Of a stretch of DNA of 64,000 nucleotides, positions 40,442 through 57,576 are shown piece after piece. The stretch's first letter is position 1. Each line of letters begins with the position of its first letter. The notes beneath the pieces are model-generated. The model was not told where the DNA came from, ran no database searches, and saw only the letters and a program-made list of their open reading frames with translations. Source of the DNA: a virus; the IMG/VR virus record IMGVR_UViG_3300020154_000003, positions 62,001 to 126,000 of that record. The stretch is one strand, 5' to 3'. The translations under genes were made by a program, and so were the position numbers.

Positions 40442-40529
40442 GCATCCGTGGCAGAATGGAGAATGATGCCCCACACTTTTAATGTGGACTGTCGTAAGAC
40501 TAACGTAGGTTCGATCCCTACCGGATGCA
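40442..40529 (+). tRNA. tRNA-Lys(TTT) with a class II variable arm
   Basis: Acceptor GCATCCG/CGGATGC is perfect; loop CTTTTAA on CCACA/TGTGG reads AAA. The variable region is 17 bases with GTC-GTAA-GAC hairpin, and the D-loop is Leu-like. Lysine tRNAs normally have a 5-base variable loop. Confidence 0.7.
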
Positions 40530-40543
40530 CAAACGTAGATTTA

Positions 40544-40572
40544 TGCGGTGAATAGAGACGCTATTCATCGCA
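40544..40572 (+). other. 12-bp hairpin between the two Lys tRNAs
   Basis: TGCGGTGAATAG-AGACG-CTATTCATCGCA pairs over 12 bp with one G-U. No U tract; probably a processing signal or spacer RNA. Confidence 0.5.
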
Positions 40573-40591
40573 GAATATGCGGAGATTAGTC

Positions 40592-40663
40592 GCCTCCTTA
40601 ACTCAATGGTAGAGTACCATACTTTTAATATGGGAGTTATCAGTTCGAATCTGATAGGGGGTA
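40592..40663 (+). tRNA. tRNA-Lys(TTT)
   Basis: Normal length; loop CTTTTAA on CCATA/TATGG; acceptor GCCTCCT/AGGGGGT. Confidence 0.88.
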
Positions 40664-40779
40664 CTAGGGCTTTGCAGATTGTTTCTCAATTGCATAGAAC
40701 ATGTGCCCATATCAAACAAGGGTTCATAGAAATTGAAATACGGGTTGACTTTCGGTGTGGAGAACCGAGCCGCCTATAG

Positions 40780-40888
40780 GGGCGGTGCCATTGTGCTAAG
40801 GTAAAATAATGTAGAATGCTGCTGAATAGAATAGATGCGCATAAAGATTCAGTAAGGTCTACAGTAGGTTCGAATCCCCTGCAGCCCA
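40780..40888 (+). ncRNA. Degenerate tRNA-like element, about 109 nt
   Basis: GGGCGGT/GCAGCCC gives 6 of 7 acceptor pairs, CATT/AATG a D-stem with GG in the loop, and TGTAGA/TCTACA an anticodon-position stem. That stem encloses a 6-bp insert hairpin CTGAAT/ATTCAG. The T-stem is weak although the loop TTCGAAT is intact. The upstream 110 bases hold more hairpins (TTCGGT/AACCGA, CCGCC/GGCGG). Confidence 0.4.
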
Positions 40889-40894
40889 CAATAT

Positions 40895-40967
40895 ACCTTC
40901 GTAGCTTAACTGGTAGAGTAGGTGACTCTTAATCATCGGGTTGTGGGTTCGAGTCCCACCGGAGGTA
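40895..40967 (+). tRNA. tRNA-Lys(CTT)
   Basis: Loop CTCTTAA on GGTGA/TCATC; acceptor ACCTTCG/CGGAGGT. Confidence 0.88.
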
Positions 40968-40968
40968 C

Positions 40969-41130
40969 ATGAATGAAATTAATACCATATGTATGGATTG
41001 TGGAAAAGAGTGTGAACGATGGCAAATCGTAAATACTGCCATGATCGGAAAAGTATGGGAAGTGTGGTGTTATTGTAAGGAATGTAACGTTGAAACTTTT
41101 CATCCTTTTGAGGGTGGAGAAGATGATTAA
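40969..41130 (+). CDS. Small zinc-finger protein, 53 aa
   Basis: The ATG is one base past tRNA-Lys. CMDCGKEC and CYCKECN give two Cys pairs spaced like a zinc ribbon; the tail is acidic. Function unknown. Confidence 0.55.
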   Translation: MNEINTICMDCGKECERWQIVNTAMIGKVWEVWCYCKECNVETFHPFEGGEDD

Positions 41131-41272
41131 AAAAAACAATGTTATGAATATTGCGTATAAGTTATAAAGTTCGTAATATTGTCTTCCCAATCGCAGTTAA
41201 TTCTAAGGCGTAGAATGTCACGATAGGAATAAGGTTATATCAAAATGAGGGAGTAGCAATACTTCCTCACAT
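41131..41272 (+). other. Noncoding spacer with hairpin
   Basis: No credible frame. GAGGGAGTA-GCAA-TACTTCCTC (9 bp, GCAA tetraloop) ends just before the first Tyr tRNA and may guide 5' processing. Confidence 0.45.
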
Positions 41273-41357
41273 GGGTAGGTAGCAAAGTTCGGTTAAATGC
41301 GCCACGCTGTAAACGTGGTCTCTTCGGAGTTCGGTGGTTCAAATCCATCCCTGCCCA
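41273..41357 (+). tRNA. tRNA-Tyr(GTA), first
   Basis: Class II variable arm; loop CTGTAAA on CCACG/CGTGG; acceptor GGGTAGG/CCTGCCC. Confidence 0.9.
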
Positions 41358-41545
41358 CAAGACACATCATGGTACTCTGACCGAGAACGATAGTGTGCTG
41401 GATGAAATATAGGTAAGGCCAGCAGAGCGGATAGGAGATTGAATAAGACTACAATCGTCAGTCACTTCCGAGTATAGTTGCACTTCAGAGAGTTTGAGCA
41501 TGTCGGTTATATCGCTTAGATGAAAGGTTCTTGATGTTCTTACAT
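41358..41545 (+). other. Noncoding spacer, 188 nt
   Basis: No frame or tRNA is credible. Short inverted repeats only; I see no clear function. Confidence 0.4.
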
Positions 41546-41630
41546 AGGTTGGTAGCAAAGTTCGGTCAAATGCGCTGCGCTGTAAACGCAGTCTCTTCGG
41601 AGTTCGGGGGTTCAAATCCCTCTCAACCTA
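41546..41630 (+). tRNA. tRNA-Tyr(GTA), second
   Basis: Loop CTGTAAA on CTGCG/CGCAG; the variable arm is identical to the first copy, which suggests duplication with its leader. Confidence 0.9.
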
Positions 41631-41634
41631 CAAA

Positions 41635-41796
41635 ATGGACTTAATTAAAGAAACGTATATCGATAAGGAAACTGGCATGTATGTCTCTGTGATTAATAAA
41701 GAAGCATTGATTGATCGAGAGAGTAAAACACCTCAGGAAGCCTTAATAAGATCGTACAATCGATTCATGGATGCAATAAAGAAGCCATTGAAAAAT

Positions 41797-41802
<6 letters not shown>
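41635..41802 (+). CDS. Small protein, 55 aa, TAG stop inside tRNA-Tyr
   Basis: Starts MDLIKETYIDKETGMY, helical C-terminus. Its TAG is bases 4-6 of the third Tyr tRNA. Unknown function. Confidence 0.55.
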
Positions 41803-41879
<77 letters not shown>

Positions 41880-41888
41880 CTATTTATG

Positions 41889-41918
41889 ATGAGACCTATG
41901 TAAATGGGTCTCATTTTA
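41889..41918 (+). terminator. Terminator of the 40-42 kb tRNA cluster
   Basis: ATGAGACC/GGGTCTCAT hairpin followed by TTTATTTTAT. Confidence 0.8.
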
Positions 41919-41953
41919 TTTTATAATAATTTTATTTTTGAAAAGAGTGCAGT

Positions 41954-42223
41954 ATGTTTTACGTGGTGCAGAAAAAAGATTTGAAAGATGGGTATTACTA
42001 TTCAGGATTAATTACTCAGAACTGGTGTGCTGTTAGTAAGGAGCAGCCAATGATTATTGGGAAATGGGATAAGGAAGATGGATGTTTTTATTTTTGGGAA
42101 TTTGATGGAAACATAAAATCAAAATCAAAGCTGTACTATCTGCCTGATATAGATAATGAAATTGAACTTGGGTTTTTCCCTATTAAAGAAATCATTCCGA
42201 AAGATGAACATGTTATTGAGTAA
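41954..42223 (+). CDS. Hypothetical protein, 89 aa
   Basis: An aromatic-rich soluble beta domain (DGCFYFWEFDG). Pfam-type small phage protein of unknown role; the frame is clean. Confidence 0.55.
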   Translation: MFYVVQKKDLKDGYYYSGLITQNWCAVSKEQPMIIGKWDKEDGCFYFWEFDGNIKSKSKLYYLPDIDNEIELGFFPIKEIIPKDEHVIE

Positions 42224-42267
42224 TGTTTGAACATTACAAATAGTTTGTTATTTTTGGTTTTGATAAT

Positions 42268-42275
42268 CTATTTAT
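42268..42275 (+). promoter_or_regulatory. Late-type motif variant CTATTTAT
   Basis: Lies 15 bases before the 87-residue gene. Confidence 0.35.
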
Positions 42276-42290
42276 AGTAAATATACCTAT

Positions 42291-42554
42291 ATGTCTGAAA
42301 ACAAATTTTATTGCCTATACAGTGACAGTGATCAAACAAAATTCTTGAGTATGGCTTCTACTCTGGAAAAATTGAAAGAGGAAAGTGAATATTGGAGCGA
42401 GGGTGTATGGTTCGAATACACGCACAAAGATGGCAGCAATTTGCTTGAGAATGAAACAGAAATGGCTGGTATCGAATTTCCTAAAGACCCTAAAAAAAGA
42501 TCATTTAAAGAAATCGAAGGAACACCAAAAACCGCATTTAAGTGGGTATCTTAG
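42291..42554 (+). CDS. Hypothetical acidic protein, 87 aa
   Basis: Starts MSENKFYCLYSDSD. It ends in TAG, 4 bases before the next start. No family. Confidence 0.55.
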   Translation: MSENKFYCLYSDSDQTKFLSMASTLEKLKEESEYWSEGVWFEYTHKDGSNLLENETEMAGIEFPKDPKKRSFKEIEGTPKTAFKWVS

Positions 42555-42558
42555 TCAC

Positions 42559-42756
42559 ATGGACTATAAGTATTTTACATACGGCAGTAAGGTCGTTGTA
42601 AAAAAATCCATTATTAAAAACGGTGTCGATTTGGAAAATAAAACTGGTTTTATTGTCAACAAAAACAGAAACCTTAAGGGTATTGTGAAGGTATTAATTA
42701 CGGAGTTGGAGTTAACTTATAACCTTCACTATACCGATCTCACAATAGTGAATTGA
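42559..42756 (+). CDS. Hypothetical protein, 65 aa
   Basis: MDYKYFTYGSKVVVKKS; a small beta-barrel-like protein coupled to the previous gene. The 3' end overlaps the convergent gene by 17 bases. Confidence 0.55.
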   Translation: MDYKYFTYGSKVVVKKSIIKNGVDLENKTGFIVNKNRNLKGIVKVLITELELTYNLHYTDLTIVN

Positions 42757-42991
42757 GGTATGTTAATATTTTTTGAACGTCCTCTTCAGCGTAAATGTCA
42801 ATCGGACTGAATTCGTAACCATCCCTGTCAATCAACTTCTGATCCTTGATCAGCACTATCGTAATTCTTCCTAACAGGTCTATACCGTCTCTCTCGGTGT
42901 GTAGTTCAAAAACAATATCTTGCTTAGGTATTGCAAGGGGATATTCAAGGTTATATATTTTTTCTTGGAGTAGTTCTTTAGATGGGGTCAT
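42740..42991 (-). CDS. Hypothetical protein, 83 aa
   Basis: Small alpha/beta protein, overlapping the next upstream gene by ATGA. No family. Confidence 0.5.
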   Translation of the reverse strand: MTPSKELLQEKIYNLEYPLAIPKQDIVFELHTERDGIDLLGRITIVLIKDQKLIDRDGYEFSPIDIYAEEDVQKILTYLNSLL

Positions 42992-43389
42992 GATAATCTC
43001 TTTCTGAAAAATTTTATTTTTCTATCGTAATTTAGGTTTTTACTTTTGATGAATTTCTTTACATGGTATCGCATGAGACCATCGAATTCATTGTCAGTAT
43101 ATTTAAGTTCCTTTTTTAGTACGTACCAAATATCTTCTGAGGGTTCGGTAAGTTCATGGAAATGGAAATGACAGAATTTGCTGTTGTATGTAAAATACGT
43201 ACCGGCTAAATGTCCACGAATACTTCCATTGTTATATTTCCCGAACCTCATTTCATCAGTAAAAGATACTGCTGAGTTCATATGTTCGAAAATCGTAAAC
43301 ACAAAACTCTCAACCTCCTTTTTGTAAAGTTGCTTGATGGGTTTTTCCGTGAATTGGGAGATGTGTTGTAAATATTCGATGCGAGTCAT
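42988..43389 (-). CDS. Hypothetical protein, 133 aa
   Basis: A basic protein with a His/Phe-rich central region (KFCHFHFHELTEPSED), possibly metal-binding. It starts just past the terminator of pseT. Confidence 0.55.
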   Translation of the reverse strand: MTRIEYLQHISQFTEKPIKQLYKKEVESFVFTIFEHMNSAVSFTDEMRFGKYNNGSIRGHLAGTYFTYNSKFCHFHFHELTEPSEDIWYVLKKELKYTDNEFDGLMRYHVKKFIKSKNLNYDRKIKFFRKRLS

Positions 43390-43390
43390 A

Positions 43391-43419
43391 AAAAAGGGGT
43401 GAGTAATTAATACTCACCC
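43391..43419 (-). terminator. Terminator overlapping the end of pseT
   Basis: GGGTGAGTA/TACTCACCC, 9 bp, with a U tract on the minus strand; the stem includes the last codons of pseT. Confidence 0.85.
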
Positions 43420-44315
43420 TTGCTTACTTGGAACACTTTAAGTCCGTTTTCTCTCCACATGTTGACAACTGGTTGACGATCCTCCAGTACTGCCCGGACA
43501 GAATATTTCCCCTTCACATTTTCCACCCACAATTCTCTCTTTACGACAATATCCTTACGGAAATCATCCATCTTACGCATCAACAGCAGGTCATACTCAA
43601 CACCATATGTTCTTAGCGACAGTTCGGTGCCCTCACGGGATTCCTCACTTCTACCAGTACAGATGATGATCGTGTAACCAGCAGCTTTGTAACAAAGATA
43701 GGTTTCGTATACAACCTGATCAAGATCATCCCGATCAACTTTATGCCAATCGAAATAACCACGCTTACCGTTCGCGTGAAACAATGTGCCATCCAGATCA
43801 ATCATAACGGCTTTAGGAAGCGCAGGATCGAATTCTGGTTCTTTGTACACGTAAGTCTTTTTAGACTGGTTTTGCAAAGCAAAGCTGTCCATTAAGATCA
43901 TGTAGTCTTCGTACATTTTCTTGATAACTTCCTCACCGACTGGTCTTTCACGAACACTGTCCCTCTCAACTGCCTTCTCGAATGAGATGTCAAATACCAT
44001 GAATTCAACGTCCGCACGATATTCCACGTACTTGATCATATCCTCAATGTATCTGGATTTGACGTGAGTAGCGTCAAGCAGGATGTTAAGTCTTCTATCC
44101 AAAGCCACATCGATGGCGTTCAAAACCAATTGAGTAATCATATCCTCAATCTTTGGTTCGCAAAATCCTTGATCCTTCAACATATAGCGGAAGTCATCCC
44201 GGTTAATTCTCACATAATCAGGGTTTTTGCGGACATATTCCTTTGACCACGTTGATTTACCTGCTGCAGGGATTCCGATAAGGATTTTGACGATTTGATT
44301 CTTTTTCTGTGCCAT
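43407..44315 (-). CDS. pseT: Polynucleotide 5'-kinase/3'-phosphatase, T4 PseT (Pnkp)
   Basis: The 302-residue enzyme matches T4 Pnkp (301). The kinase half has P-loop GIPAAGKSTWS and the RINRDDFR and ERDSVRERPVG catalytic segments. The phosphatase half has the haloacid-dehalogenase motif VMIDLDGTLF near residue 168, IICTGRSE and LEDRQPVV. In T4 it heals tRNA ends cut by host anticodon nucleases before RNA ligase seals them, which fits this tRNA-rich genome. Confidence 0.95.
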   Translation of the reverse strand: MAQKKNQIVKILIGIPAAGKSTWSKEYVRKNPDYVRINRDDFRYMLKDQGFCEPKIEDMITQLVLNAIDVALDRRLNILLDATHVKSRYIEDMIKYVEYRADVEFMVFDISFEKAVERDSVRERPVGEEVIKKMYEDYMILMDSFALQNQSKKTYVYKEPEFDPALPKAVMIDLDGTLFHANGKRGYFDWHKVDRDDLDQVVYETYLCYKAAGYTIIICTGRSEESREGTELSLRTYGVEYDLLLMRKMDDFRKDIVVKRELWVENVKGKYSVRAVLEDRQPVVNMWRENGLKVFQVSKGEY

Positions 44316-44391
44316 AATGTAAAGTTACTATAATTATATGTTATACGAAAACTTTGTATAAATGTTTCAAAACATATTAAATAATATTACG

Positions 44392-44399
44392 TATATTTG
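44392..44399 (+). promoter_or_regulatory. Bacteroidota minus-7 element TATATTTG
   Basis: Lies 14 bases before the ATG at 44414; no clear minus-33 match. Confidence 0.45.
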
Positions 44400-44413
44400 T
44401 GAAAAGTACAAGG

Positions 44414-44704
44414 ATGCCTGAATTTAGATATGAAGATTTGCCTAACGGGGAAAAAACTCGTGCAAAAGATGTGTATCGGCAGTTAGATGTATTCCGAAAG
44501 TTTCAAAATAAAGCGTCATTACCTCTCTTTACTTACCTTTTTAAGGAAAGGGGAGAACATCTGTTTGTTGAGGTATTTGTGAGAAAATCCAATAGAAATC
44601 TCCTTGATTTTTTTAACCGAGTAGATGCAGACGTTCATGAAATAATTATAATGAATGTTATGTTTAACGAATCGCTATACGCCCACGACTTTTTATATGA
44701 ATAA
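44414..44704 (+). CDS. Hypothetical protein, 96 aa
   Basis: The ATG at 44414 is chosen over a GTG at 44399 that overlaps the promoter. Basic/acidic mixed helix-strand protein. It overlaps the next gene by 8 bases. Confidence 0.5.
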   Translation: MPEFRYEDLPNGEKTRAKDVYRQLDVFRKFQNKASLPLFTYLFKERGEHLFVEVFVRKSNRNLLDFFNRVDADVHEIIIMNVMFNESLYAHDFLYE

Positions 44705-44993
44705 ATATCAACGCTTAATTAAGGATTTGGAAGAAACTGGTACTGGAAAGATGAAAGTTTTCGGTCAGTCCATGAAACCCTTAATTTACACAGGCTCCCT
44801 ACTCACCTTCACGAAAGTCTCTGAATACGAAGTCGGGGATATTGTCTTTTGCAAAGTAAAAGGCAGATTCATTGACGCACATCTCATAACCAAAAAAGAT
44901 CAAAACAAAGGCTTCATGATCTCCAATAATCATGGGTATGATAACGGATGGACTAAAACAATTTATGCTAAAGTAACTAATATCGAAGCATGA
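44697..44993 (+). CDS. S24/S26 (signal-peptidase-like) protein, 98 aa
   Basis: MKVFGQSMKPLIYTGSLLTF matches the GxSMxP nucleophile box, and VGDIVFCKVKGRFIDAHLITKK supplies the barrel and a Lys. NNHGYDNGWT is also typical. No transmembrane anchor, so it resembles LexA/UmuD-type self-cleaving or small peptidase folds. Coupled to both neighbours. Confidence 0.72.
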   Translation: MNKYQRLIKDLEETGTGKMKVFGQSMKPLIYTGSLLTFTKVSEYEVGDIVFCKVKGRFIDAHLITKKDQNKGFMISNNHGYDNGWTKTIYAKVTNIEA

Positions 44994-45331
44994 AATATTT
45001 ATTTGTCGGAGAGAAAAGAAGTGAATTGGCTAAAAAAATGAAAGTTACGTGGACTGACGGAAGGTTGGCTGCAAAACAATTATTTGATGCTTTCGTATAT
45101 TGTGGTATCGATCCTGAAAAACAGGAATTTTGCAACTGGTTTGAAGGGGGTAAAACTAAGGTACGATCTTACAACGGAACTATCGTAGCAATGGGTAAAA
45201 AGGTAAGTGATGCTCTTACTAAGGAAAAAATTAATCATATTTACATTGTTCATCCAGCAGCCAGAGGCAAAATCAGGAAAAAAGAATTATATTTCCAACA
45301 CGTAAAACAAGCACTAATAAAAACAAATTAA
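44990..45331 (+). CDS. Uracil-DNA-glycosylase-like protein, 113 aa
   Basis: The C-terminal IYIVHPAARGKIRKKELYF recalls the HPS/A-R segment of UDG-superfamily enzymes, and TIVAMGKKV fits the preceding strand. It is much shorter than true UDGs, with no clear catalytic Asp. Tentative. Confidence 0.45.
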   Translation: MKYLFVGEKRSELAKKMKVTWTDGRLAAKQLFDAFVYCGIDPEKQEFCNWFEGGKTKVRSYNGTIVAMGKKVSDALTKEKINHIYIVHPAARGKIRKKELYFQHVKQALIKTN

Positions 45332-45344
45332 ACTATAAACCAAA

Positions 45345-45893
45345 ATGAAAGGATTACTTATTGCCCTACTATTATTCGGTATTCTCGGTGTCACATTTTT
45401 CGTTATGTACATCTCTTACGACAACAAGTTTGTCACCACCAAGAATCTTTACGAAGCACAGGTCTCACAAGACCAGATCATCCACGATGAAATGTGGAAA
45501 GTTATTCAGCAGCAAGCTGGAGTTTCTGAAAAGTACAGCGAAGATTTCACTCGTAACTATAAAGAAATTATGAATGCCAGAAACTATGGTGGTGAATTGA
45601 TGAAATGGATTACTGAACAGAACCCTAATTTCAGTCCTGATTTATATTCCAAACTCATGAACACCATTGAAGTTCAAAGAAATAAATTTACTGTAGTACA
45701 ATCCAAGCTGATCTCCATTCATAATGAAATGAAAAATCAACTTACATTATTTCCGAGTAGATTGTTTTTGGTAAATATTGGTGGCCACGTATTGCCTGAC
45801 CTTAACATCGTAACTAGTTCACGTACTGATGAAGTATTCAGAACCGGGAAGGATGATGATGTCCAGCTTTTCAAGTCTGACACTGCAAAATAA
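45345..45893 (+). CDS. LemA-family membrane protein, 182 aa
   Basis: One N-terminal transmembrane helix (residues 3-24) is followed by the LemA-type helical bundle (NLYEAQVSQDQIIHDEMWKV...). It is followed by a membrane protein, as in other large phages. Role unknown. Confidence 0.65.
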   Translation: MKGLLIALLLFGILGVTFFVMYISYDNKFVTTKNLYEAQVSQDQIIHDEMWKVIQQQAGVSEKYSEDFTRNYKEIMNARNYGGELMKWITEQNPNFSPDLYSKLMNTIEVQRNKFTVVQSKLISIHNEMKNQLTLFPSRLFLVNIGGHVLPDLNIVTSSRTDEVFRTGKDDDVQLFKSDTAK

Positions 45894-45944
45894 TTCATGG
45901 GGTGCTGCCACTGGTAGCACCCTTCACTTCTTAAACCAACTCCA

Positions 45945-48487: not shown

Positions 48488-48802
48488 ATGAATTATTTAG
48501 AAAAAGAAATAGCCCTTTTCAAAAGGAGAAAACAACTTTTGAACCAGCCAATATTGAAAGTTGTTGGGGAAGGTTGTCAAGCAATTAGCGAATTTCAATG
48601 GATTGGAAAAGTAATCGGTTTCGAAGAAGATAAGGAAAAGGGTTGGACTGTGGCAGTCATCAAAATTTTGAAACATAATCGTTCATACGGTGATGCCAGA
48701 GACGCTAAGGAGGATGAAATTTATACTTATCCAATAGCGAACAAGTATTACATGATCAATGACATTCAAAACGTTGATGGTGTATGGATACTTTACACAT
48801 AG
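48488..48802 (+). CDS. Hypothetical protein, 104 aa
   Basis: The start MNYLEKEIALFKRR is just past the previous stop. A helix then a beta-barrel-like domain. Ends with TAG, 10 bases before the ligase gene. Confidence 0.55.
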   Translation: MNYLEKEIALFKRRKQLLNQPILKVVGEGCQAISEFQWIGKVIGFEEDKEKGWTVAVIKILKHNRSYGDARDAKEDEIYTYPIANKYYMINDIQNVDGVWILYT

Positions 48803-48812
48803 AAATGCGGAT

Positions 48813-49874
48813 ATGTTACTAACTAGAGATCAATTCAGGGAAGGTGTCTTTAAAAGAGATAAATACAGATGTGTCGTGTGCTTTAATCCTGCAGTTGATG
48901 CTCACCATATCATTGAAAGAAAATTATGGGATGACGGTGGATACTATTTGGATAACGGGGTTTCTCTTTGTGAACGTTGTCACATGAAAGCAGAACAAAC
49001 GATTATTTCTTGCGATGAGTTAAGAAATTCTGTTGGTATCACAACTAATCATTTACCAGCAATATTGTTTGATCGATTGATGGATGACAACAGAATCACG
49101 AATATAGGAAAGGTAAGTTTCGATAAATGGGGTAACCTAATACTGGCAGACGGTAGCCGTAGACCGGGGCCAATGTTTAATACGGAACAGGTTCAAAAAA
49201 TCATAAAGCAAGCCAATTTATTACATCTGTTTGTGGAAGATAAATATGTAAAATATCCAAGGACGTATCACTTACCATACAGCGAAAAAGCCTCTGCAGA
49301 CGATAAAAGATTATCCAGTACTGAGCAATTCGCAGGTAAGGAAGTGGTAGCAACCATCAAACTTGATGGGGAAAACACCACTTTGTATCAAGATCATATC
49401 CATGCAAGGTCTTTGGATTCAGCACATCATCCCTCTCGCGATTGGGTTAAAGGTTTGTGGGGAAGTTTCAAACATGAAATACCTGACGGTTGGAGAATTT
49501 GTGGTGAGAATGTTTACGCACTGCACACAATACCCTACAACAACTTAGAAACATACTTCTACGTTTTTTCCATATGGGATAATACGAATACCTGCCTTTC
49601 GTGGGATGAAACGGTTGCATACTGTGAAATGCTCGGACTAAAAACAGTACCCGTAATTTATCGTGGTGATTTTGATCAAGCGAAAATACAAGCTGCTTTT
49701 CCTGCAACACACAATGGTGATCCCACTGAAGGATATGTGGTTAGACTGACCGAACGTTTTCATTACGATGAGTTTGAAAATTCGTTAGCTAAATATGTGT
49801 CAAAGTCCTTCATTATCGAAGGCGCACAACATTGGATGCAGAATGCAATAATACCAAACAAGCTTTCTTCTTAA
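48813..49874 (+). CDS. HNH nuclease fused to RNA ligase, 353 aa
   Basis: Residues 1-75 are an HNH domain: CVVCFNPAVDAHHIIERKLW then SLCERCHMKAEQ. From about 140 a nucleotidyltransferase RNA ligase follows: adenylated-Lys motif ATIKLDGENTTLY, ARSLDS, WRICGENVYA (motif III-like), EGYVVRL (motif IV) and LAKYVSKS (motif V). It probably seals broken RNA after Pnkp healing. Both halves are intact; the ATG at 48813 avoids overlap. Confidence 0.88.
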   Translation: MLLTRDQFREGVFKRDKYRCVVCFNPAVDAHHIIERKLWDDGGYYLDNGVSLCERCHMKAEQTIISCDELRNSVGITTNHLPAILFDRLMDDNRITNIGKVSFDKWGNLILADGSRRPGPMFNTEQVQKIIKQANLLHLFVEDKYVKYPRTYHLPYSEKASADDKRLSSTEQFAGKEVVATIKLDGENTTLYQDHIHARSLDSAHHPSRDWVKGLWGSFKHEIPDGWRICGENVYALHTIPYNNLETYFYVFSIWDNTNTCLSWDETVAYCEMLGLKTVPVIYRGDFDQAKIQAAFPATHNGDPTEGYVVRLTERFHYDEFENSLAKYVSKSFIIEGAQHWMQNAIIPNKLSS

Positions 49875-51754: not shown

Positions 51755-51826
51755 GGATAGGTAGCTTAATGGTGAAGCTTTCGGCTGTTAACCGAATGAG
51801 TGTGGGTTCGAGTCCCACCCTGTCCT
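51755..51826 (+). tRNA. tRNA-Asn(GTT)
   Basis: Loop CTGTTAA on TTCGG/CCGAA; acceptor GGATAGG/CCTGTCC. Confidence 0.9.
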
Positions 51827-51835
51827 CAATAATAA

Positions 51836-51908: not shown

Positions 51909-52007
51909 CCGTGATCTAAAGTATTTCGAGACCTAAATCGGGTACTGGTGATGACAACGATCATTGACATGCTGGAAAAAAATTTGATAAAATTAGGTTA
52001 ATTTTGG

Positions 52008-52051
52008 AAAAAGTTAACTATGTTTACAATTGTTGAACAAGTTAACTTTTT
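52008..52051 (+). terminator. Long inverted repeat, probable terminator
   Basis: AAAAAGTTAACT and AGTTAACTTTTT, a perfect 12-bp pair with a 20-base loop and a U tract, after tRNA-Phe. It could also be an operator. Confidence 0.6.
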
Positions 52052-52059
52052 CTATATTT

Positions 52060-52143
52060 GCCGATGTCGCATAGTGGTTGATTGCACCTGACTTGTAATC
52101 AGGAAGATAATATCTCGCGGGGGTTCGAATCCCTCCATCGGCT
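52060..52143 (+). tRNA. tRNA-Thr(TGT) with expanded variable arm
   Basis: Acceptor GCCGATG/CATCGGC; loop CTTGTAA on CCTGA/TCAGG. The variable region has 15 bases with AGAT-AAT-ATCT, not the 5 expected for Thr. Confidence 0.75.
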
Positions 52144-52159
52144 CAAGAAATTTTAAAAC

Positions 52160-52504
52160 ATGATTATTGATCAATACTTAATAATATCTGAAGGAAAAAA
52201 GAAGTGGAATCCCAATGTTAAATTGGTGAAAACATTGAAAGGCAACATGCCTTCGAATGCTATCGCTCTTAAACTTAACATTGACATACCCGACAGTATT
52301 TTCAAGCGTCCTCAGCTTCAAGCTTCAATTAAGATTAATGAAGAAGACATTGCCAAACCAGTAATTAATGGACAGGTACTGGATAACATTAAAGAAGTGT
52401 TTAAGCAGCAGCTTGGAGTTGAAGTAACCTTACAACACATTCAACCTGATTTAGAACTTGCTAATTATAATATTGGTGTTAAGAATTTCCTAAAGGAAGA
52501 ATAA
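52160..52504 (+). CDS. Hypothetical protein, 114 aa
   Basis: Basic start then a beta-rich middle (NAIALKLNIDIPDSIF) and a helical end. Lies between tRNAs. No family. Confidence 0.6.
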   Translation: MIIDQYLIISEGKKKWNPNVKLVKTLKGNMPSNAIALKLNIDIPDSIFKRPQLQASIKINEEDIAKPVINGQVLDNIKEVFKQQLGVEVTLQHIQPDLELANYNIGVKNFLKEE

Positions 52505-52510
52505 TAATTT

Positions 52511-52583
52511 GCCTTCGTAGTTCAACGGAAGAACATCACTCTTCTAAAGTGTATGGTTGGGGGTTCGAATCCCTCCGAAGGTA
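52511..52583 (+). tRNA. tRNA-Arg(TCT)
   Basis: Loop CTTCTAA on TCACT/AGTGT; acceptor GCCTTCG/CGAAGGT. Confidence 0.88.
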
Positions 52584-52597
52584 CGATTTAATGAAAT

Positions 52598-52669
52598 GCC
52601 CTTGTAGTTCAATGGATAGAATAGTTGCCTTCTAAGCAATTGATATTGGTTCGATTCCAATCAGGGGTA
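52598..52669 (+). tRNA. tRNA-Arg(TCT), second
   Basis: Loop CTTCTAA on GTTGC/GCAAT; acceptor GCCCTTG/CAGGGGT. Confidence 0.87.
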
Positions 52670-52673
52670 CTAA

Positions 52674-52808
52674 ATGGAAAAAAGAAGAGTAAGACCTTCT
52701 GCTTTAATGTGGTGGAGAATACAATTAATGATCGCAATATTAATGTATCTTTTTTCACATGAGATTGCTGAAGTTATAGTTATATTAGTACAAGCCCTTA
52801 TAGATTAA
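52674..52808 (+). CDS. Small membrane protein, 44 aa
   Basis: A basic N-terminus followed by one long hydrophobic helix (residues 16-43). Its 3' end overlaps tRNA-Arg(ACG) by 15 bases. Confidence 0.5.
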   Translation: MEKRRVRPSALMWWRIQLMIAILMYLFSHEIAEVIVILVQALID

Positions 52809-52866
52809 CTGGAAAATCACTCCGCTACGAACGGAGAGACTGTAGGTTCGACTCCTACTAGGGGTA
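52794..52866 (+). tRNA. tRNA-Arg(ACG)
   Basis: Loop CTACGAA on CTCCG/CGGAG; needs inosine at 34 to read CGN. Acceptor GCCCTTA/TAGGGGT. Confidence 0.87.
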
Positions 52867-52870
52867 CAAT

Positions 52871-53083
52871 ATGAAAAACAAAAGGGTTATTAAAATAAAG
52901 TTTTATGGGTTTGCCCAATTACTTACTGTCCTATTTATAGGATTGAAATTAACAGATCATATTGACTGGTCATGGTTATGGGTTCTATCCCCGTTATGGT
53001 TGCCTGCAGTAGTTGTGATTTCAATATTATTAATTATGTTTCTATTCATGTTAATTGTTGCAGCAGCTTCAAGTAGTAGATAA
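52871..53083 (+). CDS. Two-helix membrane protein, Fragile-X-F-like, 70 aa
   Basis: IKFYGFAQLLTVLFIGLKLT, then IDWSWLWVLSPLWLP and a second long hydrophobic helix, is the pattern of short phage proteins annotated as transmembrane Fragile-X-F. Inner-membrane location; role unknown. Confidence 0.7.
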   Translation: MKNKRVIKIKFYGFAQLLTVLFIGLKLTDHIDWSWLWVLSPLWLPAVVVISILLIMFLFMLIVAAASSSR

Positions 53084-53089
53084 ATAAAT

Positions 53090-53263
53090 TGTAGAGTGGC
53101 GAAATTGGCAGACGTTGCCCATCGGTCTCATGGGAGGGGAGCAAGAAATAAAGATGAAACAATGTTGTTTGTTGGTTGGAAATCAATAAACGGGTGGCGA
53201 AAGAAATTTTAACATTAAAGTAATCCTAATCTCCCCGTGTAGGTTCGACCCCTACCTCTACAG
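53090..53263 (+). tRNA. Leu-like tRNA gene of 174 nt with a large variable-arm insertion
   Basis: Acceptor TGTAGAG/CTCTACA and T-arm GTAGG/CCTAC are perfect and the D-arm is Leu-like. The stem CCCAT/ATGGG closes a 7-base loop CGGTCTC lacking U33. GGGGAG/CTCCCC then closes a variable arm holding about 85 bases. No normal Leu anticodon is visible. Confidence 0.5.
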
Positions 53264-53277
53264 CAAAAAATACAAGT

Positions 53278-53511
53278 ATGGAAGGGCCAACGAAATTATT
53301 TTTCCCTGCAAGGGAAGAACTTCATTGTTCAGGATGTAAATATTATGATTATCATTTAGTGAAAAGTGGTCATCATCCTGTTTATGCGAAGCATTGTACT
53401 CACCCAACAGTTGAGCAATCAATGTGGTGTTTCGAAGGAAATTTACCTAAAGATGGTATCACTCCTGAATGGTGTCCATACTTGAAGAAAAATGAAAGAT
53501 CAACATATTAG
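53278..53511 (+). CDS. Cys-rich small protein, 77 aa
   Basis: CSGCKYYDYH, HCTHP, WCFEGN and WCPYL give six Cys, as in small redox or zinc proteins. It overlaps the next gene by 20 bases and ends in TAG. Confidence 0.6.
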   Translation: MEGPTKLFFPAREELHCSGCKYYDYHLVKSGHHPVYAKHCTHPTVEQSMWCFEGNLPKDGITPEWCPYLKKNERSTY

Positions 53512-53713
53512 TAGAGCACGAGCACATTGCTCGTTATGTGATATAAATTTCGTTGCGTCTGCAACACATGAAATTTCGGTTGAAGCTGAATTGAAATCAA
53601 TTGATCAATTAAAAGAACAATTAGAAGAACATTTTATTACTTCAATGCATCAAAAAAATGTTGAAGCATTTAAGCAATACAATGAAGAAATAGTCGGGTA
53701 TATCAACGGTTAG
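53492..53713 (+). CDS. Small zinc-finger-like protein, 73 aa
   Basis: AHCSLCDINFVASATHE then a coiled helix with HFITSMHQ (C2H2-like spacing). The final 22 bases, including the TAG, are the start of tRNA-Ile. Confidence 0.55.
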   Translation: MKDQHISRARAHCSLCDINFVASATHEISVEAELKSIDQLKEQLEEHFITSMHQKNVEAFKQYNEEIVGYING

Positions 53714-53764
53714 ATTGTCATCCTGATAAGATGAAGGTAGTGGGTTCGACTCCCACCCTGACTA
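53692..53764 (+). tRNA. tRNA-Ile(GAT), first
   Basis: Loop CTGATAA on TCATC/GATGA; acceptor AGTCGGG/CCTGACT. Confidence 0.85.
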
Positions 53765-53850
53765 CTGAGATATGTTATGAATTAATAACAGTGTTTTGAA
53801 ATTCTGTAGAACGTGTACAGAAACACGAGAGCAATCTCGTCTCAAAGAAT
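53765..53850 (+). other. Structured spacer between Ile tRNAs
   Basis: TTCTGTA/TACAGAA within GTGTTT/AACAC, then CGAGA-GCAA-TCTCG. No frame; probably a processed spacer. Confidence 0.4.
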
Positions 53851-53922
53851 GGGCGGTTCATATAAGGGTAAATATGCGAAGCTGATAACTTCGACACAGC
53901 AGTTCGACTCTGCTACTGCCTA
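53851..53922 (+). tRNA. tRNA-Ile(GAT), second
   Basis: Loop CTGATAA on CGAAG/CTTCG; acceptor GGGCGGT/ACTGCCT; D-stem CATAT/ATATG. Confidence 0.85.
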
Positions 53923-54025
53923 CTTGCATCGAAGGATGGTGTAGTTTCATCTTAGGCCAATGTAACCTGAGCCTTAATCACTGAACGTGGGAGCAGAAAG
54001 AGAGATGATTAGCATATCGATATAT

Positions 54026-54100
54026 TGGCCCTTAGCTTAGTCCGGTGAAAGCGACACACTCATAATGTGAAGATCGGGGGTTCGAATCCCTCAGGGCCAA
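54026..54100 (+). tRNA. tRNA with CAT anticodon (Met or Ile2)
   Basis: Loop CTCATAA on CACA/TGTG; acceptor TGGCCCT/AGGGCCA. The preceding 103 bases hold no recognisable gene. Confidence 0.8.
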
Positions 54101-54109
54101 CTTAAAATT

Positions 54110-54388
54110 ATGGAAGAAAGAATATACACAATTGATCGAGTTCGTTTCGAAGGGAAATGGGTCGAGTACTGGTTCGTTGAAAAACCGCTTGAAGGAAGAA
54201 TGAGTTTTGATGCTTGCTCTAAAGGCTACATGCTTTGGAATGCAATAGATAAAGCGGGTATTTATGATGAAGTCGTTTCAAACGGACTTAAAGGAAGAAA
54301 AATGAAATGGGTTAAGAATGAAAATTCATATGTTTTCGAACCAAAAGAATTTGTGATGGACGTTTCTTGTTTCTGTAATCAAGATTAA
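54110..54388 (+). CDS. Hypothetical protein, 92 aa
   Basis: Mixed protein with basic middle and C-terminal CFCNQD. Clean frame between tRNAs; no family. Confidence 0.55.
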   Translation: MEERIYTIDRVRFEGKWVEYWFVEKPLEGRMSFDACSKGYMLWNAIDKAGIYDEVVSNGLKGRKMKWVKNENSYVFEPKEFVMDVSCFCNQD

Positions 54389-54392
54389 AAAT

Positions 54393-54482
54393 AGAGAGTT
54401 ACCCAAGCTGGTGAAGGGGCCGATTTGCTAAATCGGTAGGTCATGTTAAAGTGGCGCGAGGGTTCGAACCCCTCACTCTCTG
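54393..54482 (+). tRNA. tRNA-Ser(GCT)
   Basis: Class II; loop TTGCTAA on CCGAT/ATCGG; acceptor AGAGAGT/ACTCTCT. Confidence 0.9.
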
Positions 54483-54495
54483 CGAGAATGAATAC

Positions 54496-54542
54496 ATGCC
54501 AAGTTGAAAGGGAACTCACAGTGGGAGCACTGCCCCTTGGCT
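54496..54542 (+). other. Nested hairpin spacer
   Basis: GCCAAG/CTTGGC encloses GGG/CCC and CAGTG-GGAG-CACTG. No frame; a compact RNA element between Ser and Gly tRNAs. Confidence 0.45.
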
Positions 54543-54546
54543 CCAT

Positions 54547-54617
54547 GCAGATGTGGTATAGTGGTATTACGTTAGCTTGCCAAGCTAAGGACGAGGGTTC
54601 GATTCCCTTCATCTGCT
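54547..54617 (+). tRNA. tRNA-Gly(GCC)
   Basis: Loop TTGCCAA on TTAGC/GCTAA; acceptor GCAGATG/CATCTGC. Confidence 0.9.
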
Positions 54618-54620
54618 CAT

Positions 54621-54977
54621 ATGTTTTACGAAAATTATCCAATTGAAGAAATTCCTAATGATATTAGGGAAATCTATGAACGTGATGTTAAACCATACAT
54701 CGGTCAATTAGTATTAAATGGCCATGAGGTTGTAAGGTTAGCAGGAATGACATTAGCTGGCGATGGAGAATGGTGTTATCGATACATGATTTTTCCTTCA
54801 TTTTATTATTGGAATCAAAATCGTAAACAAGAAATTTGTGAACCATCACTTTTGATTATGCATCCAATCCCGCTTAAAGGAGTTTTACCGGATGAGACTT
54901 ATGATGAGTTAGAAAGAGTATGGAAAATGAATGAAGAACGTTGTCCTTATTCTAAAGATTGGTTTAAGGAATTTTAA
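54621..54977 (+). CDS. Hypothetical protein, 118 aa
   Basis: Aromatic, acidic protein (GDGEWCYRYMIFPSFYYW). Starts 3 bases past tRNA-Gly. No family. Confidence 0.55.
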   Translation: MFYENYPIEEIPNDIREIYERDVKPYIGQLVLNGHEVVRLAGMTLAGDGEWCYRYMIFPSFYYWNQNRKQEICEPSLLIMHPIPLKGVLPDETYDELERVWKMNEERCPYSKDWFKEF

Positions 54978-54980
54978 AAT

Positions 54981-55052
54981 GCGAGTGTGGTGCTAGTGGT
55001 AACACAGTGGACTTCCAATTCACAGTCGCGGGTTCGATTCCCGCTACTCGCT
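54981..55052 (+). tRNA. tRNA-Gly(TCC)
   Basis: Loop CTTCCAA on GTGGA/TTCAC; acceptor GCGAGTG/TACTCGC. Confidence 0.9.
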
Positions 55053-55057
55053 CAATA

Positions 55058-55144
55058 GGAGAATTAGCATAATTGGTAATGCAGCACTCTCGAAAAGTGC
55101 CATGACTGTAAAAGGTCTTGTAGGTTCGAGTCCTACATTCTCCG
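55058..55144 (+). tRNA. tRNA-Ser(CGA)
   Basis: Class II; loop CTCGAAA on GCACT/AGTGC; acceptor GGAGAAT/ATTCTCC. Confidence 0.9.
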
Positions 55145-55161
55145 CAAAAATCAAATTTTAC

Positions 55162-55665
55162 ATGAAAGTAATCAATATATTCGGTGGCCCCGGAACGGGT
55201 AAATCAGTAACTGCAGCAAAGTTGTTTGCAGAATTAAAGATCAAAAAGTATAATTGTGAACTAATCACAGAATACGCAAAAGAACTAGTTTACGATGAAT
55301 CTTTTAAGTTGATGGAAAATCAGATTTGGATTTTTGCCAATCAGCACCACCGAATGCATCGCCTCAGGGACAAAGTGGACTACTTAATTACGGATTCACC
55401 GTTATTTAACTCTATTGTTTATTCGGGAAAAGGTGAAGAACACAAAACTTTTCATAGTTTTATCATGACAGAGTTTAACAAATACAACAATTTAAATGTA
55501 TATTTGGAACGTGAAACCGAATACCAAACTGTTGGTAGGTATCAGGATGAGGAAGGTGCGAAACAGGTTGATTTAGAGGTTCTTAGACTGTTTAAATACT
55601 TTGATGTTCCGTATGTGAAGATCGGTTTACATAATGTAACAAGTAATATAATGAATCTTTTATGA
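55162..55665 (+). CDS. P-loop NTPase/kinase (AAA_28-like), 167 aa
   Basis: INIFGGPGTGKSVTAAKLF is Walker A; YLITDSPLFNSIVY holds the Walker B-type Asp; LERETEYQTVGRYQDEEGAKQ is the lid with two Arg. This layout fits NadR-like nucleoside or nicotinamide-riboside kinases. Coupled by ATGA to the next gene. Confidence 0.8.
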   Translation: MKVINIFGGPGTGKSVTAAKLFAELKIKKYNCELITEYAKELVYDESFKLMENQIWIFANQHHRMHRLRDKVDYLITDSPLFNSIVYSGKGEEHKTFHSFIMTEFNKYNNLNVYLERETEYQTVGRYQDEEGAKQVDLEVLRLFKYFDVPYVKIGLHNVTSNIMNLL

Positions 55666-55892
55666 TAACGGAGGAACAACTTGACTCACTCCTTGAATTC
55701 GGGAAAGAAGCTGATGGAAGTTATTGCGATAGATGGCAGTTTTCCATCAAAAAGAGATTCGGGAAATGGAATTTTTACCTGTTTTGTGAGGTAGATGGTA
55801 AATTAACACATATTAAAGTTTTAAAAGACTTTGAAGATTTGAAAAATGTGTATAAAGCCATCACCGATCAAGAATTAGAATATAAAAAATAG
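55662..55892 (+). CDS. Hypothetical protein, 76 aa
   Basis: Acidic alpha/beta protein. Its TAG stop shares two bases with the start of tRNA-Ser(TGA). No family. Confidence 0.55.
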   Translation: MITEEQLDSLLEFGKEADGSYCDRWQFSIKKRFGKWNFYLFCEVDGKLTHIKVLKDFEDLKNVYKAITDQELEYKK

Positions 55893-55977
55893 AGAGTTGC
55901 CAGAGTGGTTTATCGGGGCGGTCTTGAAAACCGTTGAACTGTAACAGGTTCCGGGGGTTCGAATCCCTCACTCTCTG
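55891..55977 (+). tRNA. tRNA-Ser(TGA)
   Basis: Class II; loop CTTGAAA on GCGGT/ACCGT; acceptor AGAGAGT/ACTCTCT. Confidence 0.9.
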
Positions 55978-55978
55978 C

Positions 55979-56308
55979 GTGATATACGTAGTTAACAAAT
56001 ACAAGCACACCCCAACAGAATTTGATGTCAAAATATCAAGACCATCACCTTTGGGTAATCCCTTTACTTCGAAAGATGTTAAATCTACTAGAGCAAAATA
56101 TCAGTCGAGTTCAAGGGAAGAGTCAATCAAAAACTTTGAAAGTTACATAGTTGCTAAGATTGCACAACGCGACAAAGCAATATGTGATGAACTTAACAAG
56201 ATATATTTGATGGCCAAAAGGGGTGATGTGTATTTGGTGTGTTTTTGTAAACCGCAGGACTGTCACGGTGACATCATAAAGAAAATTGTTGAAAGTAAAT
56301 TAGCATGA
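55979..56308 (+). CDS. DUF4326-family protein, 109 aa
   Basis: SRPSPLGNPFTSKD and LVCFCKPQDCHGDIIKK are the two family motifs (SPLGNPF and CxCxPxxCHGD). I take the GTG at 55979, one base past the tRNA, because an upstream ATG lies inside the tRNA. Family function unknown. Confidence 0.8.
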   Translation: MIYVVNKYKHTPTEFDVKISRPSPLGNPFTSKDVKSTRAKYQSSSREESIKNFESYIVAKIAQRDKAICDELNKIYLMAKRGDVYLVCFCKPQDCHGDIIKKIVESKLA

Positions 56309-56643
56309 CCAGAACATTAAAATTTGAAAAAGATACCTTATCACAGTGGTTTGCTGTGATTCCTGAATGGTCTGGTAGCAGAGATGATTTACAAATGGTA
56401 ATGGGTGCTGATACATTACTTGAGATCATTGCCCAAGGAGAAAATAACGTGGAGGTTTTATTTAGTACAGAACCTTTTGAAGGAAGCAATGTCCTCAATT
56501 GGAGTGAAGATGATCTAGTAATTGGCGGTGGTTATTACGAACTACCTACTTACATGAACATTGAATATAATCTAAACATATGGCTTTGTGATGTCACCAA
56601 ATTTGTGTTTGGAGATATGCCAAGACATATTTACTTTAAATAA
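56305..56643 (+). CDS. DUF6717-like hypothetical protein, 112 aa
   Basis: Beta-rich with Trp-flanked strands (WSGSRDDLQMVMGAD). ATGA overlap upstream. Similar small proteins are common in phages and bacteria; function unknown. Confidence 0.5.
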   Translation: MTRTLKFEKDTLSQWFAVIPEWSGSRDDLQMVMGADTLLEIIAQGENNVEVLFSTEPFEGSNVLNWSEDDLVIGGGYYELPTYMNIEYNLNIWLCDVTKFVFGDMPRHIYFK

Positions 56644-56644
56644 C

Positions 56645-56812
56645 ATGGCAAGCGAAATTTTAGCGGTTCCTGAAGAATATCTGGAGGAAGTAATTAAGGT
56701 CATCCGCACAGGGTTGAAACACACAAAAGTTTCAAAAAGCGTAAAATCCAATCTAACTAAATGGTGTAATGAAGAAGAGCAGTATTTATTGGAAATGGAT
56801 GATGACGAATGA
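56645..56812 (+). CDS. Small acidic-tailed protein, 55 aa
   Basis: MASEILAVPEEYLEEVIKV resembles phage proteins with a short helical core. ATGA overlap with the next gene. Confidence 0.55.
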   Translation: MASEILAVPEEYLEEVIKVIRTGLKHTKVSKSVKSNLTKWCNEEEQYLLEMDDDE

Positions 56813-57003
56813 AACCATACGGAAGAAGAGAAAAAGGCGTTCAATTCCACTCAAAAACCGATCATAACATCAGGTTCAAAAATCGAAAGATCGGAAATTG
56901 GTGGGAAGATATAGGTTCTTCTAGTAAGAAAACGGAACGTCAAAAAGCTAAAAAATATTGTAATGAAGAAATGGTGGTATACAATAAGACCGAACCAAAG
57001 TGA
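56809..57003 (+). CDS. Small very basic protein, 64 aa
   Basis: Lys/Arg-rich, with NWWEDIGSSSKKTERQKAKK; nucleic-acid binding is likely. It overlaps the next frame by 41 bases. Confidence 0.5.
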   Translation: MKPYGRREKGVQFHSKTDHNIRFKNRKIGNWWEDIGSSSKKTERQKAKKYCNEEMVVYNKTEPK

Positions 57004-57142
57004 GACTGTTCGTAAATTAATTGCCTTAGGTAAGGGCAGAGATATTATGAACGCAATTCAAATAGAAATGAGATCAGGGAAAGGTCATGGCACTTACAAT
57101 GGGATTAGGGTTGAGCGGGTTGGAAGAATTATTATTGATTAA
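56963..57142 (+). CDS. Small basic protein, 59 aa
   Basis: MKKWWYTIRPNQSETVRKL then a glycine-rich strand region. It starts inside the previous gene in another frame. Unknown. Confidence 0.45.
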   Translation: MKKWWYTIRPNQSETVRKLIALGKGRDIMNAIQIEMRSGKGHGTYNGIRVERVGRIIID

Positions 57143-57148
57143 ATAAAT

Positions 57149-57220
57149 ACGGGTATCGTACAGTGGCTAGTATAGCGATCTCCAAAATCGTTGACGTGGG
57201 TTCGAATCCTACTACCCGTG
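57149..57220 (+). tRNA. tRNA-Trp(CCA)
   Basis: Loop CTCCAAA on GCGAT/ATCGT; acceptor ACGGGTA/TACCCGT; discriminator G. Its anticodon arm is nearly identical to that of the amber suppressor at 61540. Confidence 0.88.
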
Positions 57221-57236
57221 CAAGTTTTAATTTATT

Positions 57237-57479
57237 ATGGCGAAGAAAGTTAAAAAAGTAGAAGATATATTAGGTCAACCAGACATCATAGAATCGTTTA
57301 GTGTTTTTTATTATCAAGATCAAAAATCAAAAGGTTACTCAATATTCTCTGACGAGTTTCCATTCTTTGGGTCTCAAGGCGAAACAAAAGAATTGGCATT
57401 TGAAAACTTCATAAAAGATTTAGGTGCGATTCTCGCCATACAAAGACGAGACAAAGAAAAAAGAAAGAAGAAAAAATAA
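57237..57479 (+). CDS. HicB-like antitoxin-fold protein, 80 aa
   Basis: GYSIFSDEFPFFGSQGETKE recalls the HicB partial RNase H fold (xPxxxGxxTxG). Lys-rich ends. No HicA toxin gene is adjacent, so it may be a solo antitoxin or unrelated. Confidence 0.5.
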   Translation: MAKKVKKVEDILGQPDIIESFSVFYYQDQKSKGYSIFSDEFPFFGSQGETKELAFENFIKDLGAILAIQRRDKEKRKKKK

Positions 57480-57486
57480 AATATAT

Positions 57487-57576
57487 TCTTGGGTTGCTAT
57501 AGTGGCCGAATAGTCCAGACTGTTAATCTGGTGAACGCAAGTTCCATCGCAGGTTCGACTCCTGCCCCAAGAGCCA
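57487..57576 (+). tRNA. tRNA-Asn(GTT) with class II variable arm and encoded CCA
   Basis: Acceptor TCTTGGG/CCCAAGA; loop CTGTTAA on CCAGA/TCTGG. The variable region is a 17-base arm with hairpin GAAC-GCAA-GTTC. G73-CCA is encoded. Asn tRNAs normally have a short variable loop; a normal one is at 51755. Confidence 0.75.

Follow-up and report, generated by a model that had tools for sequence, protein, structure and literature searches.

Class II-shaped variable arms on tRNAs of class I isotypes in a huge phage, its relatives and a bacterial clade

By the textbook rule, long variable (V) arms are found only on the transfer RNAs (tRNAs) for Leu, Ser, bacterial Tyr and selenocysteine (Sec). In these canonical bacterial class II tRNAs, as in many of those described here, the long V hairpin is often accompanied by a D stem of 3 base pairs (bp) and an unpaired 13:22. 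The nev-tRNAs of nematodes are known to bear class II arms with the anticodons Gly CCC and Ile UAU (PMC4300185), and a long V arm is carried across many anticodons by the allo-tRNAs and selC* (reviewed in PMC7609411). Here we analyze a 64,000-base stretch of phage DNA (the window), bases 62001-126000 of the 366,038-base virus record IMGVR_UViG_3300020154_000003, in which tRNAs for Lys(UUU), Thr(UGU), Asn(GUU) and an initiator-like Met(CAU) have long V arms. These four had been predicted to carry hairpin V regions of 15 to 17 bases; the places and the hairpins were recovered, with lengths ranging from 15 to 19 nucleotides (nt). The observation is confirmed as real, and it is larger than first described: long arms occur on many isotypes in related phages, the reverse change occurs in tRNA-Leu, and a class II-shaped tRNA-Thr(UGU) has replaced the ordinary one in one clade of bacteria.

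ARAGORN, which detects 52 tRNAs in the window, and the Rfam model RF00005 both placed all four long-arm tRNAs at the predicted positions (Table 1). The RF00005 scores of Lys, Thr and Met lie far over the gathering cut-off; Asn scores 29.9 against 29 bits, and this low-scoring tRNA is fully folded by ARAGORN. The V hairpin is present in the minimum-energy folds of all four, and each has a 7/5 acceptor branch. The Thr tRNA combines its long arm with a 3-bp D stem and the pairs G1-C72/C2-G71. Ordinary-arm copies of Lys, Asn and initiator Met exist in the same window, as predicted, and for Thr(UGU) ARAGORN found no ordinary-arm copy there. The long V arm of Met contains a 10-nt exact copy (GTCTCATAAG) of the tRNA's own anticodon-loop region, giving two CAU loops in one RNA; this is the only such case among 148 long-arm tRNAs, the next longest match being 5 nt.

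A search with the capsid protein returned at least 80 related contigs, and we compared the tRNA arrays of 16 records, those of the window's phage and of 15 huge relatives. Of the 356 distinct tRNAs of class I isotypes, 53 carry a long V arm, distributed over Met, Lys, Thr, Asn, Pro, His, Gln, Trp, Cys, Glu, Val, Gly and Ile; such arms are very rare on Asp, Ala, Arg and Phe. The swap also runs in reverse: among 56 distinct Leu tRNAs, 21 have a V loop of just 4-6 nt, with A73 retained. Ser and Tyr tRNAs have the long arm in every case (39/39, with 0/39 swapped), which sets them apart from Leu (p=2e-6). Leucyl-tRNA synthetase (LeuRS) of E. coli accepts loss of the V arm, and seryl-tRNA synthetase (SerRS) depends on it (PMC9976931). 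Because LeuRS tolerates arm loss and serine identity needs the arm, the swap would stop at Ser and Tyr, whose synthetases use it. Two kinds of apparent exception were set aside: short-arm "Ser" tRNAs at three loci carry A73 and look misread, and a long-arm "Phe" in one related phage is a misregistered Gln(UUG).

The arms differ in sequence, and the original prediction therefore held that they arose separately or under selection. Selection stays in our account; the arms are not confined to this phage, however, as pattern searches place each isotype's long arm in a family common to many phages. The Gln pattern is found on 7 contigs, the Asn(GUU) family on 16, including phages of 274, 330 and 368 kilobases (kb), and the short-arm Leu pattern on 21 viral contigs. 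The Thr(UGU) family pattern occurs on 99 viral contigs and on 12 contigs of bacterial metagenome-assembled genomes (MAGs), with 89 long copies in pattern-selected loci. The same isotypes with long arms, for which a search of other Bacteroidota phages had been suggested, occur in many relatives and beyond phages of that phylum. Among cultured phages, the T5-like JLBYU40 has a class II Thr(UGU) together with short-arm Leu(UAG) and Leu(UAA), and T5_ev212 adds a long-arm Asn(GUU) to the same set; at the matching loci, reference T5 carries a Thr(UGU) with the ordinary arm and a Leu(UAG) with the long one. The class II Thr gene is matched by about 100 records. With short-arm Leu(UAG) as query, more than 300 records cover most of the gene, and 129 of 511 matching records reach 99% identity or more. 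Aeromonas phage Ah1 pairs a long Thr with a short Leu(UAG), and Cellulophaga phage phi4:1 a long Asn, annotated tRNA-Pseudo, with a short Leu(UAG). Other huge phages carry long-arm sets of Asn and Thr (636 kb), Thr and Val (735 kb) or three Lys (635 kb). In LR745206 (634,780 bases), three consecutive long-arm Lys tRNAs (UUU, UUU, CUU; locus 14809-15074) stand beside an ordinary Lys(UUU). JLBYU40 also has a 134-base annotated tRNA-Leu(taa) at locus 6648-6781, which ARAGORN run without introns does not report and which is possibly interrupted. A full-text literature search, with the subscription papers on T5 and BF23 tRNAs outside its reach, returned no earlier report of such arm swaps.

The V stems are maintained as helices. 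Across the 53 distinct class I-isotype long arms, the mean V-stem score is 4.59, compared with 3.35 for shuffled arms and a maximum of 3.71 in 500 shuffles. The V helix of the Thr(UGU) family has four pairs, each with two-sided changes, and one of them is paired in every one of the 20 sequences, where it takes all four Watson-Crick types. In the Asn family, whose V stems read GAAC/GTTC, GAGA/TCTC, AAGA/TCTT or GAGC/GCTC, 97.5% of cells are paired and three of the four pairs show two-sided changes. Compensatory changes extend to all helices of both families, including the acceptor and anticodon stems. The rest of the molecule is split in its resemblances. Judged by the acceptor, only 3% of 80 sampled long-arm class I tRNAs have mostly class II neighbours, and the own isotype ranks first in 62% of them, compared with 57% of ordinary class I tRNAs. 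D-arm neighbours, by contrast, are mostly class II in 60% of the same sample versus 1% of ordinary class I tRNAs, and 34% of long-arm tRNAs have the 13:22 pair, versus 76% of ordinary class I ones. Long-arm Thr, Gln, Trp, Cys and Gly tRNAs have D arms nearest to Ser, Leu or Tyr (Gln to Leu, Thr to Ser, Trp to Tyr), a resemblance that may also come from convergence on the class II core; that core, with 13:22 unpaired and a class II D arm, is found in many long-arm tRNAs (Thr, Gln, Trp, Cys, Gly) and not in Asn or Met.

Discriminators follow the cognate isotype (Cys U73, His C73, Trp G73, Gly U73), and the 3' spacer of the V arm usually has 3 unpaired nt, as in Tyr, compared with 1-2 in Leu and Ser. 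This Tyr-like V geometry, together with the cognate acceptor and discriminator, favours cognate charging and disfavours serylation and leucylation, which falls short of proof. With V regions of at least 10 nt that form a stem, the long-arm tRNAs are class II by structure; they would appear to belong neither to class II by isotype nor to the nev-tRNAs or allo-tRNAs. It is well supported that they would act as class II-shaped tRNAs with cognate identity. A changed aminoacylation, which had been suggested as one purpose of the arms, is unsupported as far as amino-acid identity goes, since discriminator and acceptor stem are those of the cognate isotype.

The strongest evidence that the class II shape works comes from bacteria. 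In one Bacteroidia family, 18 of 150 genomes carry a near-identical class II Thr(UGU) on the chromosome, flanked by housekeeping genes in the one genome examined. An ordinary Thr(UGU), with pattern TTGTAATCAGTAGGTCGTTGGTTCGATCC or near it, was found in 0 of these 18 genomes, compared with 13 of 14 controls without the class II form (p=4e-8). Its absence was judged by exact-pattern scans and by the empty operon place; we relied on such scans because the Rfam listing of one genome was incomplete, lacking Ile(GAU), Ala(UGC) and Leu(UAA). The usual place of the ordinary gene, before Tyr-Gly-Thr(GGU), is empty in two class II genomes. The class II Thr gene is therefore both a conserved chromosomal gene and, with the ordinary form absent by exact pattern, apparently the sole gene for its codon, and its product is most probably the only reader of ACA in those bacteria. 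Since it replaces the ordinary Thr(UGU) in this clade, the shape appears to work in translation. The distribution was delimited with a covariance model of the Thr family, whose members score at least 77 bits and for which the next best, tRNA-Ser, reaches at most 67. At the level of whole classes the family is uncommon: in a class-wide Bacteroidia sample it was present in two seed genomes and 1 of 295 others. In two other bacterial classes, matches in the Thr-family score range came from seed genomes only, and weaker hits were tRNA-Ser where checked. The class II Thr(UGU) adjoins a RidA-like gene in three MAGs from Kiritimatiellae or Verrucomicrobia.

The explanation to which we give about an even chance is that these are working tRNAs charged by the host, in which the V arm can be exchanged where the synthetase makes no use of it, with escape from nucleases as the probable advantage. 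Host synthetases would charge the long-arm tRNAs according to their anticodons, and the tRNAs would then be used in translation. The V arm would behave as a structural module, exchanged in both directions in class I isotypes and Leu, and not in Ser or Tyr. At least three routes of origin may be envisaged: Ser-, Leu- or Tyr-like bodies whose anticodon and acceptor were remodelled (Thr, Gln, Trp, Cys, Gly), a V region grown on a class I body (Asn), and a copied anticodon loop (Met). No synthetase of family PF00587 was found in 13 phages; therefore, the host Thr, Ser and Pro enzymes must serve.

The proposed advantage relates to tRNA-cutting defences. AriB, the effector of PARIS, cleaves Lys(UUU), Thr(UGU) and, to a lesser extent, Asn(GUU) between positions 40 and 41 and depends on contacts outside the anticodon loop (PMC12409363). 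That the arms might block an anticodon nuclease, as originally suggested, is a reasonable idea: the three long-arm elongators of the window are exactly the main AriB targets and thus phage copies of isotypes that this nuclease attacks, from which escape would be a further step. In the clade, long arms are present on 17 of 49 tRNAs with AriB anticodons, compared with 36 of 307 others (p=1.4e-4, in a test chosen after the match was seen), and the only class I isotypes with long arms in T5_ev212, Thr(UGU) and Asn(GUU), are both AriB targets. A long V arm would lie beside the AriB cut in the 3' strand of the anticodon stem and may reshape the part of the tRNA that nucleases touch, with the tRNA still acceptable to host translation. 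Both in the window and in T5-like phages, the class II Thr(UGU) has an intact AriB site, UAAUC|A; therefore, any resistance lies elsewhere, and the V arm is the obvious candidate. U39, the base changed in the U39A escape of T5 Lys, is found in 11 of 17 long-arm and 15 of 31 short-arm tRNAs and does not clearly separate the arm classes. The V region is already implicated for Tyr, as retron and Septu nucleases cut tRNA-Tyr there and the T5 tRNA-Tyr is reported to resist retron-Eco7 through its V loop (PMC13096335). The phage also encodes repair enzymes. A kinase/phosphatase of the T4 Pnkp type and an RNA ligase are located in the window (Table 1), and an Rnl1-type ligase, present in 11 of 13 records overall and mostly within the tRNA array, lies outside it; this set fits repeated cutting of tRNAs by hosts. 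Overall, protection from tRNA-cutting defence is inferred and has moderate support. A broader version, in which V-arm exchange would be a general phage counter-defence aimed at exactly the nuclease-attacked tRNAs, the new shape being tolerated by translation and not by the nuclease, and in which bacteria would have adopted the class II Thr(UGU) as the single copy they have, we advance only tentatively.

Several points weigh against working, host-charged tRNAs that escape nucleases. Function, charging and escape are all read from sequence comparison. The AriB link was spotted after the fact among tRNAs that are not independent, and it draws on a published target list. AriB leaves Gln(UUG) and Met(CAU) uncut (PMC12409363), and both of these non-targets also carry long arms, which disfavours AriB as a single cause. 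The T5 tRNA-Thr of the rescue experiments was considered as direct proof of escape and rejected, because the Thr(UGU) of reference T5 has an ordinary arm. In 30 phage-anticodon pairs the long arm exists alongside an ordinary copy, so some of these genes may be spare. Finally, the two-way swap with Leu and its limitation by synthetases would be expected from neutral exchange too.

Neutral exchange limited by synthetases alone is a serious rival, although we judge it somewhat less than probable. Phage tRNA genes would drift because the host has copies of its own, arms would be moved by anticodon shift, recombination and duplication, only the Ser and Tyr synthetases would stop the process, and no advantage would be involved. 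The anticodon-loop copy in Met agrees with such a process, as does the rarity of long arms on Asp, Ala, Arg and Phe, which differing constraints would give. So does the resemblance of D arms to those of a particular class II isotype, which recalls alloacceptor remolding (PMC4783518, PMC3923123). In contrast, the enrichment at AriB anticodons, the wide conservation of the Thr family with its 89 long copies and the fixation of class II Thr in a bacterial clade all speak against drift, while each is compatible with it.

It is improbable that the genes are pseudogenes or RNAs without a role in translation, either decaying copies or decoys that soak up nucleases. Ordinary Lys, Asn and Met copies in the same window, the tRNA-Pseudo annotation of the similar phi4:1 Asn gene and the decoy role discussed for over-expressed phage tRNAs (PMC12409363) would fit this view; yet all helices are kept with compensatory changes, the long-arm gene is often the sole phage copy (22 phage-anticodon pairs), and in bacteria the ordinary tRNA has given way to class II Thr. 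A change of identity, whereby the arm would attract SerRS, LeuRS or the tyrosyl enzyme (TyrRS) and the wrong amino acid would recode phage or host proteins, seems very unlikely. The long V arm is the main serine determinant (PMC9976931), and nev-tRNAs are misacylated with Leu in vitro (PMC4300185), but the long-arm tRNAs have a cognate acceptor and discriminator and a V geometry unlike that of Ser or Leu. Moreover, class II Thr is apparently the sole ACA reader in the bacterial clade, where global recoding of Thr to Ser would be severe. That the extra bases are an intron or insert removed during maturation is barely credible: archaeal tRNAs can carry introns outside the anticodon loop, but no bacterial enzyme is known that would remove such an insert, and a D arm often remodelled to the class II core and a stem that covaries as a stable hairpin are to be expected of a mature arm.

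Table 1. Coordinates of long-arm tRNAs, ordinary-arm counterparts and RNA repair genes in the window
Feature	Position	Strand	Details
Initiator-like tRNA-Met(CAU), long V arm	33606..33694	+	19-nt V region 33650-33668 = ACCGTCTCATAAGGATGGC; C1.U72 mismatch
tRNA-Lys(UUU), long V arm	40442..40530	+	17-nt V region 40488-40504 = ACTGTCGTAAGACTAAC
tRNA-Thr(UGU), long V arm	52060..52144	+	15-nt V region 52104-52118 = AAGATAATATCTCGC
tRNA-Asn(GUU), long V arm	57487..57576	+	17-nt V region 57532-57548 = TGAACGCAAGTTCCATC
Initiator tRNA-Met(CAU), ordinary arm	33831..33904	+	ARAGORN
tRNA-Lys(UUU), ordinary arm	40592..40664	+	ARAGORN
tRNA-Asn(GUU), ordinary arm	51755..51827	+	ARAGORN
tRNA-Ile(UAU), possible fifth case	63494..63574	+	11-nt V region; T stem broken; doubtful
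Polynucleotide kinase/phosphatase, T4 Pnkp type (tRNA repair in T4)	43407..44315	-	HAD_PNKP 4.5e-41; phrog_505 4.8e-77
RNA ligase, N-terminal HNH stretch	48759..49874	+	PF09414 2.5e-34; phrog_24030 3.2e-124

The packaging, portal and capsid genes of the window's phage are T4-like, and a nucleotide search of window positions 1-25000 against a phage collection gave no match. Upstream regions of genes show no enrichment of the Bacteroidota -7 promoter motif TANNTTTG (2 occurrences against 2.1 expected); a host of this phylum is unconfirmed for this reason. Among the other tRNA genes of the window, two have the amber anticodon CUA (61540-61613 and 63586-63659). The 33 long open reading frames end in TAA (29), TGA (4) or TAG (0), and read-through of TAG was considered and set aside, as no long reading frame in the window is split by TAG. 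Two further tRNAs have 6-nt anticodon loops in the ARAGORN fold and are called tRNA-??? (27259-27333 on the - strand, 31896-31967 on the + strand). A tRNA-Leu at 59432-59515 has the anticodon AAG (A34), a wobble base unusual for bacterial Leu that several relatives share. Two tRNA-like genes lie on the - strand elsewhere in the phage record: one (190148-190206) has acceptor, D and T arms and a CCA end without an anticodon arm, and the other (249730-249818), about 1.2 kb from the Rnl1-type ligase, has an enlarged anticodon arm.

Many phages and one bacterial clade thus break the textbook rule on V arms, and the pattern of swaps reveals which synthetases constrain the arm in nature. It offers a testable idea of why phages carry tens of tRNAs: survival of tRNA-cutting immunity may come from a change of shape, not of anticodon sequence. 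The question can be decided with laboratory E. coli, because reference T5 and its close relatives hold both arm classes at matching loci. Such tRNAs may be mislabelled by gene finders, as the phi4:1 Asn gene, annotated as a pseudogene, illustrates.

Compared with canonical class II tRNAs, those described here belong to other isotypes, have the acceptor and discriminator of their cognate class I isotype and usually a Tyr-like 3' spacer of 3 nt. The nev-tRNAs are charged with Leu in vitro (PMC4300185), whereas the tRNAs of these phages and bacteria would have cognate acceptor identity. Allo-tRNAs and selC* have an 8/4 or 9/3 acceptor branch or a Sec-like structure (PMC7609411), in contrast to 7/5 here. 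Animal mitochondria offer a parallel to the reverse swap, as their Leu and Ser tRNAs lack long arms and LeuRS accepts a Leu tRNA with a short V loop (PMC9976931); the phages use a bacterial LeuRS or their own, and their Ser tRNAs keep the arm. As in alloacceptor remolding or anticodon shift (PMC4783518, PMC3923123), tRNA bodies would switch isotype in evolution; the switch here crosses structural classes, occurs in phages, runs in both directions and would include remodelling of the acceptor. The defence-evading tRNAs of phages (PMC10264068, PMC11555353, PMC12409363) are likewise phage copies of targeted isotypes with PNKP and ligase genes alongside, but they differ by mutations in the anticodon stem or loop, or in the V-loop sequence of an isotype that already has the arm, whereas in the tRNAs described here it is the class of the V arm that changes.

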